From a virus: 23,115 bases of DNA. Under the pieces are notes generated by a model. It saw only the letters and a program-made list of their open reading frames with translations. It had not been told where the DNA came from and did no database searches. The first letter of the stretch is position 1. Each line of letters opens with the position of its first letter. The position numbers and the translations under genes were made by a program. This document shows positions 4,272-16,702 of the stretch, piece after piece. The stretch spans positions 1-23,115 of IMG/VR virus record IMGVR_UViG_3300046454_000346; one strand, written 5' to 3'.

Positions 4272-5764
4272 CAACCGCCTTCGCTGAGGCGGCTGACATC
4301 ATCGACCCGCCCATGGTCGGGGCTGCGTTGTACCATGATGACCCGAAAGGGTTTGTCCATGACTGCTTCATCTGGAAGGACGACGATCCCGGACCGACCG
4401 ACTACCAGGACGAGGTGCTGGACCGGATCGTCGCAGAGCATCGAGTCGCGGTGTGTGGCCCACACGGTCTGGGCAAGACCACCACGGCAGCGTGGATCAT
4501 CCTGTGGTTCAGCTTGACCAGGGATGCGATGGCTGAGGACTGGAAAGTGCCGACCACCGCATCGGTGTGGAGGCAGCTGGAAAAGTTCCTGTGGCCAGAG
4601 GTTCACAAGTGGGCAGCTCGGCTCAACTGGGAGCTGCTAGAGCGTCGGCCGTTCCGTGACGGTGAAGAGCTGCTCGACATGGCGATCAAGCTGCGCACAG
4701 GTGAGGCGTTCGCAGTCGCCTCAGACGACCCGGCGAAAATCGAGGGTGCGCACGCTGACCAGCTGCTCTACCTGTATGACGAGAGCAAGTCGATCAGCCA
4801 GGAGACCTTTGATGCCTCAGAGGGAGCGTTCTCCGGCGCTGGTATGGATACGTCGGCGGAAGCCTTCGCCCTAGCATCCAGCACCCCAGGAGAGCCGCAG
4901 GGACGTTTCTACGACATTCAAAAGCGGCGACCCGGCACCGAGGACTGGTCAGTCAAGAAGGTGACCAAGGAGGAAGTCCAGGCAGCCGGTCGGATGTCGA
5001 AGGAATGGGCCGAGCAACGCGAGAAGCAGTGGGGCAAGGAATCGGCGGTGTACATCAACCGCGTGCTGGGCGACTTCGCGTCCAGCGAGGAGGACACCGT
5101 CATTCCGCTGAGCTGGGTCGAAGCAGCCAACGAGCGTTGGCATGAGGAGCATGAGGACTGGAGCGCCGACCTAGAGAACGTCGGCTGCGACATCGCGCGG
5201 TCCGGCAAAGACAAGACCGTGCTCGCCCTGCGTCGAGGCAGCCTCTTGACTGAGCTACGCAGGTTCACCAGGCAGGGCACGATGGAGACCACCGGGGTGA
5301 TCAAGGGTGTGCTCCAAATAGATCCCGCAGCCATCGCGACGGTGGACGTCATCGGGATCGGCGCGGGCGTCGTAGACCGACTGCTGGAGATGGGGATGCC
5401 CTGCGAGCCGTTCAACGCGAGCGAGCGCACCGAGGTGCTGGACAGCACAGGCGAGCTGGGCTTTGTCAACTGTCGCGCAGCCAGCTGGTGGAACCTACGC
5501 GAGCTGCTGGACCCTGACAGCACCTATGACGCCATTGCGCTGCCGCCCGACGACATGCTTACCGGCGACCTGACCGCTCCGCACTGGAGGGTGATGAGCG
5601 GTGGACGTATCCAGGTCGAGTCCAAGCAGGACATCATCAAACGACTCGGCCGCAGCACCGACGACGGCGACGCCGTGGTCATGGCCTTCTGGGAAGGACA
5701 GCCGCGTGAACAGGAGCATGTCGAGGAGACATGGGAACCCGAAACGATTGGAGCAGACATATGA
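4268..5764 (+). CDS. Terminase large subunit (packaging ATPase and nuclease)
   Basis: The terminase large subunit pumps DNA into the prohead using ATP and cuts it at the start and end of packaging. The 498-residue protein has a Walker A loop (GPHGLGKTT, residues 64-72), a Walker B strand ending in acids (LLYLYDE, 166-172) and a coupling motif (ASSTP, 203-207). The C-terminal RNase H-like nuclease shows the first acid at D308 (GCDIARSGKDKT), the second at D360 (ATVDVIGIGAG) and a last acidic pair near D466/D468 (DDGDAVVMAFW). Length and order fit the family. The start overlaps the preceding gene by ATGA and the stop overlaps the protease gene at 5761 in the same way. Confidence 0.93.
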   Translation: MTTAFAEAADIIDPPMVGAALYHDDPKGFVHDCFIWKDDDPGPTDYQDEVLDRIVAEHRVAVCGPHGLGKTTTAAWIILWFSLTRDAMAEDWKVPTTASVWRQLEKFLWPEVHKWAARLNWELLERRPFRDGEELLDMAIKLRTGEAFAVASDDPAKIEGAHADQLLYLYDESKSISQETFDASEGAFSGAGMDTSAEAFALASSTPGEPQGRFYDIQKRRPGTEDWSVKKVTKEEVQAAGRMSKEWAEQREKQWGKESAVYINRVLGDFASSEEDTVIPLSWVEAANERWHEEHEDWSADLENVGCDIARSGKDKTVLALRRGSLLTELRRFTRQGTMETTGVIKGVLQIDPAAIATVDVIGIGAGVVDRLLEMGMPCEPFNASERTEVLDSTGELGFVNCRAASWWNLRELLDPDSTYDAIALPPDDMLTGDLTAPHWRVMSGGRIQVESKQDIIKRLGRSTDDGDAVVMAFWEGQPREQEHVEETWEPETIGADI

Positions 5765-6531
5765 GCTACGCCGCAGAGCTGTTGGGCATTCGCAACTACG
5801 GGTGGAAGCCCTCGCTTCCCGATGCCCGCGACATACAGGCGTTCGCCACGCCGCCCGCGCCGTTGGCTGTCGAGCTGCCCGACGAGTTCAGCTTGCGCGA
5901 CGAGATGCCCGGCGTCTACGACCAGGGACAGCTCGGCTCCTGCACAGCGAACGCCATCGCTGGTGCGCTCCAGTACGCGAACATCAAGGCGGGCCATGAT
6001 TTCGGTGTTCCGTCGCGGCTGTTCATCTACTACTGCGAGCGCTTGCGCGAGGGCAGCGTCACTCAGGACGCCGGAGCCTACGGCCGCGACGGATTCGCCT
6101 CGCTTCGCAAGACTGGCGCACCCCCAGAGACCGTCTGGCCATACGTCATCGAACGCTTCGCTGACAAGCCGAGCGACGAGGCGTATGCCGATGCCGGGGC
6201 GAACCGCATCAAGCACTACACACACGCTCGCACATCGGCGCTGGAGGTCAAGCTGTTGGTGGCCGACCACAAACCTGTCGCGTTCGGCATGAGCGTGCCG
6301 CAGTGCTTTGAGGGAGAAGCCTGCATGACGACCGGCATCATGCCGGAATTCACCAAGGGTGAATCCTTCATCGGCGGCCACGAGATGCTGATCATCGGAT
6401 GGAAACCCGGCTACTTTGAGGTGCGCAACAGCTGGGGTCCGAACGTCATGGACGCTGGCCACGTCTGGATTCCGGAGACATTCCTGTTCGGCGGCTACGC
6501 CAGCGACTTCAGGGCGATACAGGCGATCTGA
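5761..6531 (+). CDS. Papain-like (C1A family) cysteine protease
   Basis: This 256-residue protein carries the complete active site of the papain family: the oxyanion Gln and nucleophilic Cys in YDQGQLGSCTANAIAGAL (Q55, C61), the catalytic His in GGHEMLIIGW (H207) and the Asn in EVRNSWGP (N223). The order and spacing match known C1A peptidases. The N-terminus (GWKPSLPDARD) resembles the short lead-in of bacterial and archaeal members. There is no signal peptide, so it should act in the cytoplasm or as a virion part. The frame is open to an ATG at 5731, but the ATG at 5761 has a GGAG upstream and overlaps the terminase stop (ATGA), so it is chosen. Lying between terminase and portal, it could process a virion or host protein; the target is unknown. 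A separate prohead protease exists at 12694, so capsid maturation need not be its job. Confidence 0.85.
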   Translation: MSYAAELLGIRNYGWKPSLPDARDIQAFATPPAPLAVELPDEFSLRDEMPGVYDQGQLGSCTANAIAGALQYANIKAGHDFGVPSRLFIYYCERLREGSVTQDAGAYGRDGFASLRKTGAPPETVWPYVIERFADKPSDEAYADAGANRIKHYTHARTSALEVKLLVADHKPVAFGMSVPQCFEGEACMTTGIMPEFTKGESFIGGHEMLIIGWKPGYFEVRNSWGPNVMDAGHVWIPETFLFGGYASDFRAIQAI

Positions 6532-9155: not shown

Positions 9156-11873
9156 ATGGCATACCCTGCAACCCTTGACGCACTCCCCACCACCAGTAAA
9201 AACGAAGACCTCTCCAAAAACACACACCCGAAACTTCATAACGACGTCAATGACGCGATCAATCGACTTGAGGAAGTTCTTGGACTAGAACCCCAGGGAG
9301 GCTCCGGCACAGTTGGCGAACGCATTGCGGCCGTCGAGCAGTCCATCACCGCCATTGACCTTGTGCCAGAGAACTACGGCGCTAAAGGCGACGGGGTTAC
9401 CGACGACACGGAAGCCTTTGAAAAATGCAGCAAAGCCATCAAAGCCGCCCATTCAGGCAAAGGCGGCACGATGTTCTTGCGAGCGGTCACCTACATTCTT
9501 GACAACTTCATCTGGGAAAACAAGATCACGATAGAAGGGTCCGGCCAGCAGGCCACAACCCTGAAAGCCAAGGCCGGGTCCACGAACCCCGTAATCAGAA
9601 TTGGCGCTGGGAAGGTCGAAGGCGGCTGGAGGAACTTGCAAGTTGCCTCTAACGGGAATGCGGGACAGCACGGCTTCCAACTGCACGCAGTCGAAAACGA
9701 AACCGGCGGCGGAGTCTGGAACTCGGACTTCACCAACGTTCAGGTTGGCAGCTTCTCAGGTTGCCAGATGTGGTTCCAGGGCGGCGCGATAGGCGCAGGG
9801 GAACCGCACCAGAACGTCACATTCCACAATGTGTACCTGCGCCGTCCGGATACGGGGACCGGAGCAACCACCAGTCGCGGGTTCAAAGCGACAGGACAGT
9901 GTGCCAAGTTCTACTTTGACACCGACTGCGTGATTCAGGGCATTACCAATCTCGGCGAAGGCAAAGCCGTTGGAACCAACATCGAGCTGTCCCGTGAGTT
10001 CTTGCAGACGACCACGCTGAGCGCTGAAGCAGCGGCCGGGCAGAAAAAAGTCAAACTGACTTCAGTTGCGGGGCTGGAAGCCAACAAGCTGGTGTCCATT
10101 GGCGAGGGTGCCTTCAACGAGCTTTGCGAAATCGAATCCATCGCGGGTTCGGAAGTCACGATGAAAGCAAACCTTGAATTCACCCATGCCAACGGGGACA
10201 CTTTCTACGCCTTGTCAGGCACCGTTGGCGCTCCGGCCACCAAAGCTCCGGTCTTCTTCCTGTTCGACGGGGCAACAATTCAGAACGCCGATCTAGAGGC
10301 TCTGGTTGACTCCGCTCAGTGGGTCATCTTCAAGGCATGCGACGCGGAGAACCAGGCGCGCGTGATGAAGGTGAGGCACGAAGGCTTCCAGGTCCACTTC
10401 CAAGGTAATGTGTCCGGAGCTACTGAAGGAACCGCGCTCGGATCGGGAACACTCACACCCGGCTCCAAAATCATCACGGGCGCCAACGCTGGTTGGGTCA
10501 ACGGCGACAAAATCAACGGTCGCGGCATCCCGGCAGGAACCACCGTTGAATCGGGCGGTGGTGGCGCCGAAATTCACATCACCAACAACGTAGAAGAAAC
10601 TACGGGCGGCGAAACGGCCATGACCGGCGTCCCCCTGGTCAAGGGCGGCGAAGGCAAAGGATACATCGCAGACTACGGGGCTGGGTGCCAGGGCAGCGTT
10701 TCATATTTCCCGAATGGCGGGATTGACAACGCCGTCATCTGCCATGGGGAACATGGAGTGCGGGTCAAAGAGCTTGCGCGCAAATCCGCAACGACGTTCC
10801 AGAACACAACCGGCATCACGCGGAGCATGGGAACCGCTGAAGTGCTTAATCTTGGAGGAGCGCTGGCTGCGTCATTGACGAACGCCACCAACTCCATCAA
10901 GTTCATCTCCGGTACGCACGCAACCGGAGAGAGAATCCGCATCACCGCGACGGTGGCCGCCACCAAATTCATCACAGGCGGCAATATCACTTTGCCGGGC
11001 GGAGTTAACTTGACCCTCGCTGCAGGCGAGACGGTCAACCTGGAGAAGACAGACGCCGGGCCGACAACTTGGATAGTCATCGGGGTGCAGCGTACCAGCA
11101 CAGCCGTCCCTACTGCACCAACTATCGTCACCGCGACAAACGCCGCTCTGGCGGTGCCTGCGGGAGCTGGCCATGCGTTGGTCACCGTAGTCGGCGGTGG
11201 AGCTGGCGGAGGCGGCGGAGGAGCTGACGCAAAAGAATCTCCTGTGAACACTCAGGTTGGTGGCGGCGGTGGCGGGTCGGGTCAGTCGGTCACAAAGTTG
11301 ATCTCGCTGGCAGAAGCCGCGACCCTCAATGTCACAATCGGCGCGGCTGGGATCGGCGGTGCGGGCGGCGCAGCCAGCTCCAACAACGAAGGCCATGCCG
11401 GGGAAGAAGGCAAAGCCGCGAACACCGACACCACCGTGGCGGGAACAGGGTTCACAACGGTGACCGCGCGTGGTGGGTCTGGCGGTAAGGCTGGGGCTGC
11501 CAAATCAGCAGCAACAGTCAACGCCGGGGTATACGGCGGTCGTGCTACGGGTGGTCAGACCAGCACAAACTGGATGGCTGGAGGTGGAGGCGCAGCAGCC
11601 TCAGCGAGCGGAGGGGGTGGAGGTTCCGCCATAGGTGCGTCCGGCCGAGGTGGTGGGGCTGGAGGGCCAGCCAACGGCGCCAACGGCGGCAGCGCAGGAG
11701 CGGAAGGAACCATCTCTTCCAAAACAGGCACCACCGAAGGAGGCACACCAGGAAATGCTCCGGAAAACTCCGGTCAGGGTGGCGACGGTGGTGGCGGTGG
11801 CGCTCCGCAGGGCAAAGGCGGCTCAGGCGGAAACGGCGGTTCAGGCGTAGTGATCATAAGTTGGCTGCCGTAG
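9156..11873 (+). CDS. Spike/fibre-like protein: pectate-lyase-type fold with glycine-rich C-terminus
   Basis: This 905-residue protein is built like a receptor-binding spike. Residues 1-65 look like an attachment domain with a short coiled coil. YGAKGDGVTDDTEAFEKC (74-91) is the hallmark opening of the Pectate_lyase_3 beta-helix. The middle has beta repeats, including segments of the types LSAEAAAGQKKVKLTSVAG and GSGTLTPGSKIITG that recur in phage surface proteins. From about residue 676 to the end it is glycine-rich (up to six Gly in a row) and closes with GSGVVIISWLP, as in glycine-rich tail-fibre tips. The ribosome-binding site AAGGAGA is just upstream. Such genes normally follow the tape measure; here it sits inside the head module, so it may be a head fibre or a displaced tail spike. 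Many Lys codons are AAA, unlike the upstream genes. Confidence 0.8.
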   Translation: MAYPATLDALPTTSKNEDLSKNTHPKLHNDVNDAINRLEEVLGLEPQGGSGTVGERIAAVEQSITAIDLVPENYGAKGDGVTDDTEAFEKCSKAIKAAHSGKGGTMFLRAVTYILDNFIWENKITIEGSGQQATTLKAKAGSTNPVIRIGAGKVEGGWRNLQVASNGNAGQHGFQLHAVENETGGGVWNSDFTNVQVGSFSGCQMWFQGGAIGAGEPHQNVTFHNVYLRRPDTGTGATTSRGFKATGQCAKFYFDTDCVIQGITNLGEGKAVGTNIELSREFLQTTTLSAEAAAGQKKVKLTSVAGLEANKLVSIGEGAFNELCEIESIAGSEVTMKANLEFTHANGDTFYALSGTVGAPATKAPVFFLFDGATIQNADLEALVDSAQWVIFKACDAENQARVMKVRHEGFQVHFQGNVSGATEGTALGSGTLTPGSKIITGANAGWVNGDKINGRGIPAGTTVESGGGGAEIHITNNVEETTGGETAMTGVPLVKGGEGKGYIADYGAGCQGSVSYFPNGGIDNAVICHGEHGVRVKELARKSATTFQNTTGITRSMGTAEVLNLGGALAASLTNATNSIKFISGTHATGERIRITATVAATKFITGGNITLPGGVNLTLAAGETVNLEKTDAGPTTWIVIGVQRTSTAVPTAPTIVTATNAALAVPAGAGHALVTVVGGGAGGGGGGADAKESPVNTQVGGGGGGSGQSVTKLISLAEAATLNVTIGAAGIGGAGGAASSNNEGHAGEEGKAANTDTTVAGTGFTTVTARGGSGGKAGAAKSAATVNAGVYGGRATGGQTSTNWMAGGGGAAASASGGGGGSAIGASGRGGGAGGPANGANGGSAGAEGTISSKTGTTEGGTPGNAPENSGQGGDGGGGGAPQGKGGSGGNGGSGVVIISWLP

Positions 11874-12693: not shown

Positions 12694-14184
12694 ATGATGA
12701 TGACGACCGCTCAGCTAACAGAGATCCTGGAGGCGCGTGCCCGAACTCCATTCAGGGAGGGCGCAGCCGCCGGAGTGAAGCGGGAGATCACCATCATCGA
12801 AGCTGGGTGGGGTTCGTCCGGCTACTACTCCGAGCAGGTGCTGGAGCGCGACATACCGCGCATCTTCCCAATCGGGACCCATATGTACTTGGATCACCCG
12901 ACGCTGAGGGAGGACAAGGAACGTCCTGAGCGTTCTCTCCGCGATCTGGTCGGGGTAGTAGTCGAGACCCCGCGCATGTCCGGCATCGCCTCTGTGGCGG
13001 TGTGTGAAATCTTTGAGCACTGGGTTCCGGTGATCGACGCGCTCGCTGAGCACATCGGCACCAGCATCCGGGCGTTCGGCACCAGCGAGGAAGGCGACGC
13101 TGGCGGCAGGACCGGCCCGATCATCCACCAGCTCACCGAGGGCGTGTCAATCGACTATGTGACGCTGGCTGGTGCTGGCGGCAAGGTCGGCCCGCTGGTC
13201 GAGAGCGCGCAGGCGAAGGTGCTGCCGCTCATCGAGTCGGCGCGGGCTGCGCGATCTGTCGATGAGGCTCTCAACTCAGACCTGTCTACCAACCTGGAAA
13301 AGGCTGGCGAAGAAAAGTGGGGGTCCAAGGAACCGTACACCTATGTCTACGTTGAAGACTTTGACGTTGACGAAAACTGGGCGGTGTTCTCCGTCCGGCC
13401 GAGCGGCAACGACCGGGTGCTGAAGCGCATCTCGTTTGTCCGCAACACCGAGGGTGACGTTGCGCTAAGCGGTGATGGTGAAGAGGTCGAGCGCGTCACC
13501 ACCTATGAGCCAGCCGACGACGGCATGACCGTCGCAGAACTGAACATGGACACGGTGATGGCGTCGATGCCGCCGAGCTTCTCGGACAACGAGAAGTTCA
13601 AGGAGTCATTCAAAGACTTAATCCAAGAGTTTGACAACAGCGGCTCCGGCCGTGCAACCAAGGAGGCCCAAATGGGCGAGGAGAATCGCCAGCTGTCGGA
13701 GCTGCAAGAGTCGGTCCGGCGGCTGGAGGAGGCTCAGAAAGAGAACGACAAAAAAGTCGAGTCTCTGGAAGAGTCCAAAAAAGCGGAGACCGACCGCGCT
13801 GACCGTGCAGAGGAAGCTCTCCTGCGCGTCGAGGCCGAAAAGGTCATCGTCAAGGTTCTGGAAGATTCCGAGGGTCTGCCCAGCAAGGCGACCGAGCGGG
13901 TCATCGAGAACTCACTCCAAGGAGACCTGCCGGTCAACGAAGACGGCAAGCTCAAAAAGGAAACGCTGGAAGAGACCGCCCGCGCGAAGCTGCGCGAGGA
14001 GATCGAGTACATCGGTGAGGCCACCGGTCGCGGCAAGGTCCGCAACCACGGCTCCAGCGATTCCATCACAGAGTCGGGGTCCGAGGACGAGGACAGCGAC
14101 GATGACATCAAGGCTCTGGAGAAGTCGTTTGAAGAGAGCGGCATGTCCGAGGGCGAAGCTCGCATCGCGGCGAGAGGAAGGTAA
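12694..14184 (+). CDS. Prohead protease / scaffold fusion (capsid maturation protease)
   Basis: The N-terminal 170 residues look like a phage prohead serine protease. GTHMYLDHP supplies the candidate catalytic His (H63 or H68), HIGTSIRAFG the Ser (S124), and VSIDYVTLAGAGGKVG (D154) the last strand with a possible acidic partner. Residues about 300-496 are highly charged and helical, with a long coiled coil (LQESVRRLEEAQKENDKK and beyond), as expected of a scaffold that fills the prohead and is then degraded. At 496 residues it is much longer than a free protease, which supports the fusion. It lies just before the decoration and capsid genes. Three consecutive ATGs exist (12694, 12697, 12700); AAAGGA at 12689-12694 fits the third best, so the true protein may be two residues shorter. 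Confidence 0.8.
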   Translation: MMMTTAQLTEILEARARTPFREGAAAGVKREITIIEAGWGSSGYYSEQVLERDIPRIFPIGTHMYLDHPTLREDKERPERSLRDLVGVVVETPRMSGIASVAVCEIFEHWVPVIDALAEHIGTSIRAFGTSEEGDAGGRTGPIIHQLTEGVSIDYVTLAGAGGKVGPLVESAQAKVLPLIESARAARSVDEALNSDLSTNLEKAGEEKWGSKEPYTYVYVEDFDVDENWAVFSVRPSGNDRVLKRISFVRNTEGDVALSGDGEEVERVTTYEPADDGMTVAELNMDTVMASMPPSFSDNEKFKESFKDLIQEFDNSGSGRATKEAQMGEENRQLSELQESVRRLEEAQKENDKKVESLEESKKAETDRADRAEEALLRVEAEKVIVKVLEDSEGLPSKATERVIENSLQGDLPVNEDGKLKKETLEETARAKLREEIEYIGEATGRGKVRNHGSSDSITESGSEDEDSDDDIKALEKSFEESGMSEGEARIAARGR

Positions 14185-14190
14185 GCCAAC

Positions 14191-14535
14191 ATGGCGAAGA
14201 ACCGCAAGTACGACATTGGCAGCGCACCGCTGCCTCTGGTCGTCCCGGAAGGCGGAAAATCGGGTGACCCTGTAGTCATCGGGAACATCCCCGCTGTCCT
14301 CCTGCTGGACTCCCAGTACCCGGCTGCGACTGCCGTTGACACCGGAGGCGTCTACAACCTCCCGGTCGAAGGCAAAAACAAAGCCGGGGAAAAAGCCATC
14401 GAAATTGGGGACATCATCTACATCAAAGGTGGCGTCCTCAGTGTCAACAACGAAGAAGGCGTCAGGTTCGGATACGCGATGGGACCTGTCACCAAAAACA
14501 AAAAAGAAACGATCCCCGTCAAAATCGGGTACTAG
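14191..14535 (+). CDS. Head decoration protein (DUF2190-like)
   Basis: This 114-residue protein has the pattern of small capsid decoration/stabilising proteins: GDPVVIGNIPAV, then AVDTGGVYNLPVEG and AIEIGDIIYIKGG, a set of beta strands like the DUF2190 family. Such proteins trimerise on the mature capsid surface. It lies between the protease and the major capsid gene, the usual place. GGAAGG upstream of the ATG is the ribosome-binding site. Lysine is coded almost only by AAA (10 of 12 by hand count), in contrast to the start of the next gene. Confidence 0.75.
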   Translation: MAKNRKYDIGSAPLPLVVPEGGKSGDPVVIGNIPAVLLLDSQYPAATAVDTGGVYNLPVEGKNKAGEKAIEIGDIIYIKGGVLSVNNEEGVRFGYAMGPVTKNKKETIPVKIGY

Positions 14536-14552
14536 AAAGGAGACTGACTCTT

Positions 14553-15707
14553 ATGGCACAGGTGCTTGAGTTGGTCGAGCGGATGCGGGCCGAGGAGGCC
14601 AGCGTGTCCAAGCTCTTTGGTGGGGATGAGGGCGTACAAGTTCTCCGCCACTCCGCGCAGGATTTGGCGGAGGCCCAGAAGTTCCTAAGCGACATCAAGA
14701 CGGGCCGGAAGAAGTTCTGGCAGTTTGAGGAGGCAATGTCCACCTCTGACTTCCCGATCCTGATGGGCGACATCCTTGACCGGACGTTGCTCGCAGGCTA
14801 CCAGGAGATTTCGCCCTCCTGGCAGGGGTACGTCAAGAAAGGCACCGTTAACGACTTCCGCAAGGCCAAGAAGGTCGCGGTGGACGGTGCCGAGGGAGTG
14901 CTCGGAAAAGTGGGCGAGCAACAGCCCTACCCCGAGGACAGCGTGGCCGACAAGAAGGACGAATATTCCGTCTTCAAGTACGGGAAACGTCTGGCCATCG
15001 ACTGGGAGGACATGATCAACGATGATCTCGGTGGTCTCGACTCCCTTCCTCAGCGGCTCGCCCGTGCAGCTCGACGGACCGAGCAGAAGACAGCAGCGGA
15101 ACTCTGGGTTGGCAAAAAAGGCCCATCGGAAACGCTGTACAAAGCGGAATTCAAAAACGTCATCGAAAAAAATCCACCGCTGAGCATCGCGTCGTTGCAA
15201 CAGGCGCTGCTCCTCCTCTCAGAAATGAAGGACTTCGATGGGGAACCCATCGAAATCGGCGCGGTCACCCTGGTGATCCCGTATGCGCTGGAAGTGACGG
15301 CCAACAACATCCTCCACGCTCTGACGATTGACGTCAACGAGTTCGGCGGAACCGAAAAACAGCGGCTGCGCGCTCAGAACTGGATGAGCAACAAACTCAC
15401 CCTGGTGACCGAGCCGTACATTCCCATGATCGCCAACGAAGCGAATGGCAACACGACATGGGCGCTGTTCGCAACTCCGGGCACTTCGCGTCCGGCCTTG
15501 GAGCTGGGGTTCCTGCGGGGACACGAAGTCCCGGCGCTCTACGAAAAGGCACCCGACGCTCGCCTGGTCGGCGGCGGCGGAGATGCGAGGGAGTCGTTTG
15601 ACAACGACACCATTCAGTACCGCATCCGCCACGTGATGGGCGGCGTCCAGTACATCAACACAGGCGGTTACAAAACCACCGTGGCGTCCAACGGTTCCGG
15701 CGCGTAA
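14553..15707 (+). CDS. Major capsid protein (HK97 fold)
   Basis: The 384-residue protein is assigned as major capsid from its position after protease and decoration genes, its length, and a family-like layout: a helical N-arm (residues 1-60), then an E-loop/spine region (YVKKGTVNDFRKAKKV, EYSVFKYGKRLAIDWE, residues 92-153) and a C-terminal axial and peripheral domain ending in IQYRIRHVMGGVQYINTGGY. No long delta domain is present, in line with a separate scaffold. AAAGGAG at 14536-14542 is the ribosome-binding site. Codon choice changes inside the gene: up to about base 15110 Glu is GAG in 14 of 16 and Lys AAG in 13 of 16 cases; afterwards Glu is GAA in 11 of 15 and Lys AAA in 8 of 10 (hand counts). 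Confidence 0.85.
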   Translation: MAQVLELVERMRAEEASVSKLFGGDEGVQVLRHSAQDLAEAQKFLSDIKTGRKKFWQFEEAMSTSDFPILMGDILDRTLLAGYQEISPSWQGYVKKGTVNDFRKAKKVAVDGAEGVLGKVGEQQPYPEDSVADKKDEYSVFKYGKRLAIDWEDMINDDLGGLDSLPQRLARAARRTEQKTAAELWVGKKGPSETLYKAEFKNVIEKNPPLSIASLQQALLLLSEMKDFDGEPIEIGAVTLVIPYALEVTANNILHALTIDVNEFGGTEKQRLRAQNWMSNKLTLVTEPYIPMIANEANGNTTWALFATPGTSRPALELGFLRGHEVPALYEKAPDARLVGGGGDARESFDNDTIQYRIRHVMGGVQYINTGGYKTTVASNGSGA

Positions 15708-15710
15708 GAA

Positions 15711-15727
15711 CTGACCCCATGGGTCAG
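15711..15727. promoter_or_regulatory. Hairpin enclosing the start codon of the zinc-finger gene
   Basis: CTGACCC (15711-15717) and GGGTCAG (15721-15727) are exact reverse complements around the loop CAT. The ATG of the next gene (15719-15721) lies in the loop and first stem base. There is no T-tract and no clear ribosome-binding site before it. The hairpin could limit translation of the zinc-finger gene or protect the end of the capsid message. Confidence 0.55.
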
Positions 15728-15895
15728 CGACGCACAAGTGGCGGTTCCGGTCGGGAGAGCACCCACCCGGCCGGGCCGTCGCCTGCGTCACCTCCAAAAC
15801 TGCTCACCGGCCTGGCGCACACCTGCGACGGCTGTGGCATGAAATTCAGAACTGCAACCGAGCTGCGCGAACACAAGAGGATCGCACATGCCTAG
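15719..15895 (+). CDS. C2H2 zinc-finger small protein (58 aa)
   Basis: The product has a Gly/Ser/Pro-rich, probably disordered N-terminus (residues 1-34) followed by one textbook C2H2 finger: CDGCGMKF then a TATELREH helix and KRIAH, that is C-x2-C-x12-H-x4-H with the conserved Phe and Leu in the right places. Such fingers bind DNA, RNA or protein. The gene starts 11 bases after the major capsid stop and overlaps the next gene by eight bases (15888-15895), so it fits the operon. The ATG at 15719 is inside a hairpin and lacks a clear ribosome-binding site, which suggests low or coupled translation; a later in-frame start at the internal ATG (15839) would break the finger. The function is unknown. 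Confidence 0.75.
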   Translation: MGQRRTSGGSGRESTHPAGPSPASPPKLLTGLAHTCDGCGMKFRTATELREHKRIAHA

Positions 15896-16292
15896 TACAT
15901 ATGACGTCACAACCGACAACGGCAAGGTTCGTCTGCTGATCTCCGATGTTGGTGGAGCCGATGGCAAATCATTCATCTTTGAAGACAACGAGATCGAAGG
16001 CTTCATCAGCTTCAATCCAGACCTGCGCATCGCCGCAGCCACCGCGCTTAGGACGATGGCCGCCAACGAGGCGATGGTCTCCAAGTGCATTGAATTCCTT
16101 GAACTCAAGACTGACGGCGCGAAGGTCGCAGGGGCGCTCGAAAAACTGGCCGACAAACTTGAAGCGCAGGCCGATGGCGACTACGACTTTGAGATCGCGG
16201 AGATCGGCGCTGACTTTTTCAACCGCCGCGAGATGCGACTGGTGAACTGGCTTGAAGGTGGCGAAGGCGAAGAGATCGGTGAACGGCTGTGA
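15888..16292 (+). CDS. Head-tail connector (adaptor) protein
   Basis: The first gene of the connector block in long-tailed phages normally encodes the adaptor that binds the portal (HK97 gp6 / SPP1 gp15 type). This 134-residue, acidic and mainly helical protein fits: SFIFEDNEIEGFISFNPDLRIAAATALRTMA is typical of the family's start, with an acidic loop followed by the AAA-rich helix (residues about 28-60). The ATG follows AGAGGA by seven bases. The gene ends in GTGA, shared with the next start. The assignment rests on this pattern and on the order of the following genes. Confidence 0.7.
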   Translation: MPSTYDVTTDNGKVRLLISDVGGADGKSFIFEDNEIEGFISFNPDLRIAAATALRTMAANEAMVSKCIEFLELKTDGAKVAGALEKLADKLEAQADGDYDFEIAEIGADFFNRREMRLVNWLEGGEGEEIGERL

Positions 16293-16702
16293 CGCCGCGT
16301 GCGCTACCGGCGAAGTCCACCGGCCTACGTGGACCGGGACAGACGATCTTCCCTGAGGAGGCCAAGGAGGAGGCGCGTCGCGTCGGCCTGAAGCCGGAAG
16401 CCGCCCTAGTGTTCACCAAGGTCCAGGAAGACGACGGTGGCGGCGACGTTCGCAACACCTGGGTCCCGCAGGGCATGCGTGTGCGCGGGCGTATCGACGG
16501 GCTGCGCTCTCGGAGCCAGGCAACCCAGTTCGGTGACGCGGTTGACGAGTCCACCACACACATCATCACCCTGGATGCCGGAACGGTCGTCACCGCCAAG
16601 GACCACATTGAAATCGACGGTCAGATGTGGACGATCACCGCAGAGATGTTCTTCACAGACGAGGCTACCCAGCGTCTCCAGGTGAAAGAGTTGAACCCGT
16701 GA
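16289..16702 (+). CDS. Head closure / head-tail stopper protein
   Basis: A GTG start overlaps the previous stop (GTGA at 16289-16292). The 137-residue protein has a charged, probably flexible N-terminus and a beta-rich C-terminal half with RVRGRIDGLRSRS, VTAKDHIEIDGQMWTI and LQVKELNP, the pattern of the small barrel proteins that close the connector after packaging (SPP1 gp16 type). Position between adaptor and HK97-gp10-like protein supports this. Homology is judged by eye only. Confidence 0.6.
   Translation: MTPRALPAKSTGLRGPGQTIFPEEAKEEARRVGLKPEAALVFTKVQEDDGGGDVRNTWVPQGMRVRGRIDGLRSRSQATQFGDAVDESTTHIITLDAGTVVTAKDHIEIDGQMWTITAEMFFTDEATQRLQVKELNP

Follow-up and report, generated by a model that had tools for sequence, protein, structure and literature searches.

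Both C2H2 zinc fingers and structured ends of capsid genes are known kinds of element. Classical fingers touch DNA bases through positions -1, 2, 3 and 6 of their helix, as described by a recognition code, and the eukaryotic regulator GAGA factor illustrates that one finger together with basic residues can suffice for DNA binding. The small zinc-finger protein Com of phage Mu, which has four cysteines, acts on mom; on a structured mRNA, its gene overlaps with the one downstream. In open-licence papers, searched in part with narrow queries, no description was found of C2H2 proteins encoded behind a capsid gene or of a double hairpin like the one reported below. Here we analyse such an arrangement in 23,115 nucleotides of viral DNA (IMG/VR record IMGVR_UViG_3300046454_000346), the whole of which is called the window in the following. 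Judging from sequence comparisons, the gene at positions 15719-15895 of its plus strand is real and accessory and encodes a C2H2 protein with a single finger and predicted zinc ligands. The reading that we prefer, with a probability of roughly 50%, is that this gene is expressed in step with the capsid gene and that its product is most likely a small nucleic-acid-binding helper at head assembly.

The open reading frame (ORF) runs from ATG to TAG and encodes 58 amino acids, in which CDGCGMKFRTATELREHKRIAH forms a C-x2-C-x12-H-x4-H motif at residues 36-57, with Phe43 and Leu49. Both the ligands that characterize the C2H2 class (C-x2-4-C-x12-H-x3-5-H) and its hydrophobic core are present. Pfam PF00096 (zf-C2H2) matches residues 34-57, i.e. 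the codons at 15818-15889 (plus strand), with 26.0 bits, just over the cut-off of 25.2, and AlphaFold2 predicts a beta-beta-alpha finger, with a block-mean pLDDT of 84-85 for the last 18 residues and of 75 for the preceding block. The nearest solved folds found by Foldseek for this predicted finger are classical DNA-binding fingers, with Zif23-GCN4 on DNA at the top (0.8 A over 26 columns; E 0.12 with so short a protein). The canonical finger of this spacing, with its conserved Phe and Leu, that a first-pass annotation had read from the letters alone is thus borne out by motif, Pfam score and structure prediction. The same annotation had proposed a disordered N-terminus, and the N-terminal half is indeed uncertain in the AlphaFold2 model (pLDDT 53-54 across residues 1-30); most of this stretch, however, reflects a conserved RNA double hairpin that is read as protein.

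The gene starts 11 nt past the stop of the gene for the major capsid protein (14553-15707, plus strand; Phage_capsid_4, 1.8e-40), which is itself preceded by a gene for a head decoration or cement protein (14191-14535, plus strand; Phage_cement_2, 8.5e-7). At its other end it overlaps by 8 nt with a head-tail connector-like gene (15888-16292, plus strand), which occupies the corresponding position after the finger in L004, L005, L003 and L011 and matches phrog_18316, a family of unknown function, at 1.7e-15. The sequence AAGAGGA at 15875-15881 (plus strand), with a spacing of 7 nt between AGAGG and ATG, probably serves as ribosome-binding site for the connector gene; in the finger frame it reads as Lys53-Arg54 plus one base, and the connector ATG overlaps the codon of the zinc ligand His57. 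The last finger codons are therefore likely to supply both the ribosome site and the start codon of the head-tail gene, and the conservation of His52-Ala58 may partly be owed to this overlap. In L060 and L029 the ligands are kept although the finger gene meets the next gene in another register (an ATGA overlap). The finger ORF has no clear ribosome site of its own.

The capsid and connector proteins, together with two capsid alignments (A2 and A3), served as queries to collect relatives among named phages, bacterial genomes and viral contigs. Of 204 records read, 203 had a match to a capsid query; records in which no stop was found or which had fewer than 250 bases past the stop were excluded, and records identical over the 540 bases around the capsid stop were merged, which left 129 distinct loci. 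A finger ORF occupies the post-capsid slot in 10 of these 129 (the window, L016, L014, L013, L020, L060, L029, L027, L184 and L199). Twelve loci had a loose motif match, from which L057 and L093 were dropped because the match was in another frame; L011, where the finger is present and the capsid gene is not on the contig, stands outside this count. The strict finger pattern occurs nine times in the 129 slots (46,440 bases), where 0.08 matches would be expected by chance; elsewhere in these loci (1,139,226 bases) it occurs twice, both times on the minus strand.

Residues C36, C39, F43, H52 and H57 are invariant in all nine aligned finger proteins, the others being 22-88% identical to that of the window, and in L016, L014, L013 and L011 the protein is retained in the same slot. 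A loss of Cys or His residues in related phages, which the first-pass annotation had held to speak against its proposal, was not seen where the gene is present, and a free-standing C2H2 gene right after the major capsid gene proves to be real and conserved. A conserved C2H2 spacing at this position in other phages, which had been suggested as a check, was found in part: the ligands are kept, but L013 and L011 have a C-x1-C spacing, and in other capsid relatives the whole finger gene is missing. Between the window and L016, the finger half differs by 7.0 synonymous and 3.0 non-synonymous changes (dN/dS 0.10), a pattern that points to purifying selection at the protein level. In L020, two overlapping finger ORFs (2138-2305 and 2295-2447) lie in tandem behind the capsid gene. 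Fingers also occur elsewhere in phages, as L206 has a C2H2 protein that is not in the post-capsid slot and adjoins a 547-aa terminase-like ORF. No relatives of the finger protein were found in genome contigs or in 50,697 phage records, where a search up to E 10 gave eight weak places, all of them at E 1 or above.

At the RNA level, the first half of the gene has a second layer of organization. A double hairpin, which starts a few bases past the capsid stop and covers codons 1-27 of the finger ORF, is common to six loci, i.e. the finger-bearing window, L016 and L014 and the fingerless L022, L025 and L017. In the consensus fold of these six, hairpin 1 (CTGACCC-CAT-GGGTCAG; 15711-15727, plus strand) has a helix that is paired in 100% of cells, with both-side changes in 3 of 7 pairs, and the start codon of the finger ORF (15719-15721) lies within its 3-nt loop plus the next base. 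Hairpin 2, a long GC-rich stem with an outer stem (15729-15789, plus strand; consensus fold and covariance model R1), overlies the codons of the disordered N-terminus. Both-side changes are found in 15 of the 32 pairs of the double hairpin, a count that none of 500 shuffles reaches and that falls to 2-4 when the partner strand is slid; covariation was counted here on six sequences, with alignment and structure derived from the same data. Model R1 finds the double hairpin again at the capsid stop of L015 (E 2.7e-4), a locus outside the model, whereas the other 122 loci searched gave no capsid-stop match below E 0.01. Rfam has no match in the window. That hairpin 2 is a standard intrinsic terminator was considered and rejected, as a terminator scan of the plus strand from 14100 to 16500 returned no terminator-like site.

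The double hairpin also explains why synonymous sites in codons 1-27 are nearly silent between the window and L016: there is 1.0 synonymous change over 22.2 sites, compared with 45.5 over 86.2 in the connector gene (Fisher 2e-5). Between the window and L014, the same codons show no such silence (dS 1.6), which we read as probable change by compensation.

What does an RNA element of this kind do at a capsid stop? The start codon displayed in the loop of hairpin 1 is ATG in six aligned loci, GTG in L012 and TTG in L015. In the fingerless L022, L025, L017, L012 and L015, a frame of 24-31 codons opens at this loop start and ends between -4 and +5 nt from the next start codon, and it can be read as a bridge by which translation passes from the capsid gene to the one that follows. 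These five cases were chosen after being seen and include related phages (L025/L017 and L012/L015), so that the product of 2.7e-4 is a guide only; in L017 the gene after the bridging ORF is not the connector, and L002 has a hairpin and no frame of 24-31 codons. We infer that ribosomes finishing the capsid gene would restart at the start codon in the loop of hairpin 1, pass through the double hairpin and stop on the connector start codon. In fingerless phages, the 24-31-codon ORF would form the bridge in the same way, and in finger phages some 25-30 more codons would add the finger. Through such coupled translation, synthesis of the 58-aa protein would keep pace with that of the capsid protein.

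The window is a mosaic around this junction. Its major capsid protein is 78% identical to that of the fingerless L002 and 57% to that of the finger-bearing L004, and its cement protein is 77% identical to that of L002 and 55% to that of L004. Terminase, portal, finger, connector and the following genes, however, match L004 at 84-95% (head protease 71%), and the switch between the L002-like and the L004-like parts falls at the capsid stop and hairpin. The cement and capsid genes (14191-15707) therefore look as if they had been exchanged as a cassette relative to an L004-like backbone. In the capsid tree, the window belongs to a clade of 11 members (support 99), with the finger in five and absent in six, and over all 129 loci the presence of the finger requires at least seven changes on this tree, which was built with FastTree only and has long branches flagged. 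The finger is thus patchy, has not moved with the change of cement and capsid genes and has stayed on the portal-connector backbone next to capsids of different lineages; these comparisons make it accessory and speak against an essential part of the capsid.

Other genes of the window are noted for themselves. A papain-family cysteine protease (5731-6531; Peptidase_C1, 2.6e-9) is encoded in an unusual place, between the terminase and portal genes. A 905-aa protein with pectate-lyase-like and glycine-rich domains (9156-11873) lies between a minor head gene and the head protease. A second putative zinc protein (2404-2853) has C-x2-C ... C-x2-C followed by a Lys/Ala-rich, histone-like tail, with no Pfam match at E 0.01.

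Further out among the relatives, a family of small proteins occupies the slot between capsid and connector genes. A profile trained on 13 slot proteins with basic tails matches in 34 of the 129 loci (13 of them being the training rows) and in none of 7,742 control ORFs, and it recovers held-out proteins, i.e. the finger proteins of L027 (5e-9), L060 (2.5e-7) and L029 (2e-4) as well as a helix-hairpin-helix protein (1e-9). What members share is an N-terminal helix (consensus LPxPVTxTExYLxAILxELRxLR) and a VELxEP motif. Their ends vary: most carry a basic tail, those of L027, L060 and L029 a C2H2 or C2HC finger, and those of L157/L024 a helix-hairpin-helix (HHH_8 3.6e-4, below the cut-off). AlphaFold2 predicts helix, linker and finger for the L060 protein, whose finger passes the cut-off of the double-stranded-RNA-binding Pfam family zf-C2H2_jaz (23.0 versus 22.6 bits). 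The family spans viral contigs from soil, prophages of actinobacteria and a virus of a methanogen; its alignment found nothing in the PDB (two matches, E 1.1 and 2.4), and tblastn against phage records gave nothing for the slot proteins of L060, L105 and L165 and weak matches only for that of L199. The last (5114-5524) begins with a finger-like stretch whose loop is longer, followed by a coiled coil, and by eye its C-terminal end is possibly HeH/SAP-like, which Pfam did not confirm. L184 resembles the family by eye (short helix, LKEP, finger) and is not among the profile matches.

The proteins of the window, L016, L014, L013 and L020 do not have the N-terminal helix of this family and give no match to its profile, and that of the window does not have the VELxEP motif either; its gene is all the same a small one between capsid and connector. 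What links these proteins to the family is position and finger, and not sequence similarity. Since the ends of the slot family are basic tails, C2H2 fingers or helix-hairpin-helix modules, a nucleic-acid-binding helper is the most likely role for the window protein, i.e. the 58-aa product may act as a minor head or DNA-handling factor. This swapping of modules, as far as it can be read from the proteins' sequences, is the main argument in favour of nucleic-acid binding. The product may be a late regulator, a host-directed factor or a minor virion protein, the three roles that the first-pass annotation had put forward.

A serious rival, to which we would give a real if smaller chance, is that the finger binds protein, docking on a head, neck or host protein with no nucleic-acid contact; in its extreme form, the product would be accessory cargo directed at the host or its defences. 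Helix positions -1, 2, 3 and 6 of the window finger, read off the sequence, are Thr, Thr, Glu and Glu, with no Arg, Lys, Asn or Gln, and the Glu at positions 3 and 6 recurs in the alignment in L016, L014 and L020. Such residues at the base-contact positions would fit a protein-binding finger as well, as would its patchy presence and the fact that it stayed with the portal/connector backbone through a change of capsid gene. The position, however, is fixed at the junction between capsid and connector, where the finger gene runs into that of the connector, and the other modules of the slot family, basic tail and helix-hairpin-helix, are nucleic-acid binders by type.

Somewhat more speculative is an extended form of the preferred reading, in which the junction would be a plug-in site: the loop start would couple a small ORF to the capsid gene, phages would swap nucleic-acid-binding ends, a DNA- or RNA-handling protein would be made in fixed proportion to the shell, and the finger may bind the hairpin of its own gene. 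As a whole, we regard this chain as unlikely.

Still more doubtful is a role like that of phage Mu Com, in which the protein would regulate the mRNA that encodes it, with the finger binding the double hairpin there and setting the amount of connector relative to capsid. A small zinc-finger gene that runs into its neighbour on a strongly folded mRNA would suit this, and so would the jaz-type score of the L060 finger; the window finger, by contrast, is not called jaz by Pfam. The same RNA element occurs without a finger in L022, L025, L017 and L015, whereas L184 and L199 have fingers yet weak structure (z -1.0 and -1.7). A Com-like hiding of the connector start was rejected, as no stable structure was found there in any of five finger loci (z +0.29 to +1.73; window, L016, L014, L013 and L011). 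With the element existing without the finger and the connector start unhidden, such regulation is possible and not favoured.

It seems improbable that only the RNA element and the translation bridge matter, the finger being a passenger on a leader-like ORF. Element and bridging ORF do persist without the finger, and strong structure behind the capsid stop is general (z < -3 in the first 110 nt in 52 of 129 loci, versus 3 of 129 controls within the capsid gene and 1 of 119 farther along), but most changes in the finger half are silent, and no ligand is lost even at 22-40% identity. Finally, a chance ORF or a capsid-finger frameshift fusion, to which the shortness of the ORF, its want of a clear ribosome site and a finger frame open into the capsid gene in the window might point, is hardly credible, since the finger is slot-specific and conserved and its frame relative to the capsid gene is not (offset 11 in the window versus 10, 10 and 4 in L016, L014 and L013), so that no conserved shift can produce a fusion.

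Overall, 177 bases appear to combine three overlapping functions, i.e. an RNA element, a zinc finger and the start of the next gene, and phage head-junction genes of fewer than 60 codons are easily overlooked. The finger gene points to an unnamed slot family of small proteins; if their products bind nucleic acid, they would form a testable and little-studied class of head-coupled proteins.

Compared with known systems, the predicted protein is like the classical C2H2 finger (PF00096, e.g. Zif268) in ligand spacing, in its Phe and Leu core and in predicted fold, whereas, in contrast to fingers of the Zif268 type, it is a single finger in 58 amino acids, encoded in a phage head operon and with no Arg or Lys at the usual base-contact positions. 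Another comparison is with the GAGA factor type, a single finger with a basic flank; GAGA factor is a eukaryotic regulator, and DNA binding by the phage protein would be putative. Like that of phage Mu Com, the locus has a small gene for a zinc-finger protein, which shares bases with its downstream neighbour on a structured mRNA, but the finger is of the C2H2 type, the hairpin lies inside the finger gene and is present also where there is no finger, and the start of the next gene is not hidden. In Methanoculleus virus Blf4 (PMC8540584), ORF15 (QXM18632.1, a hypothetical protein) is a member of the slot family in the same slot, between the capsid gene ORF14 and the head-tail adapter gene ORF16; it differs from the window protein in having 46 amino acids with a helix and a short basic end, and no finger.
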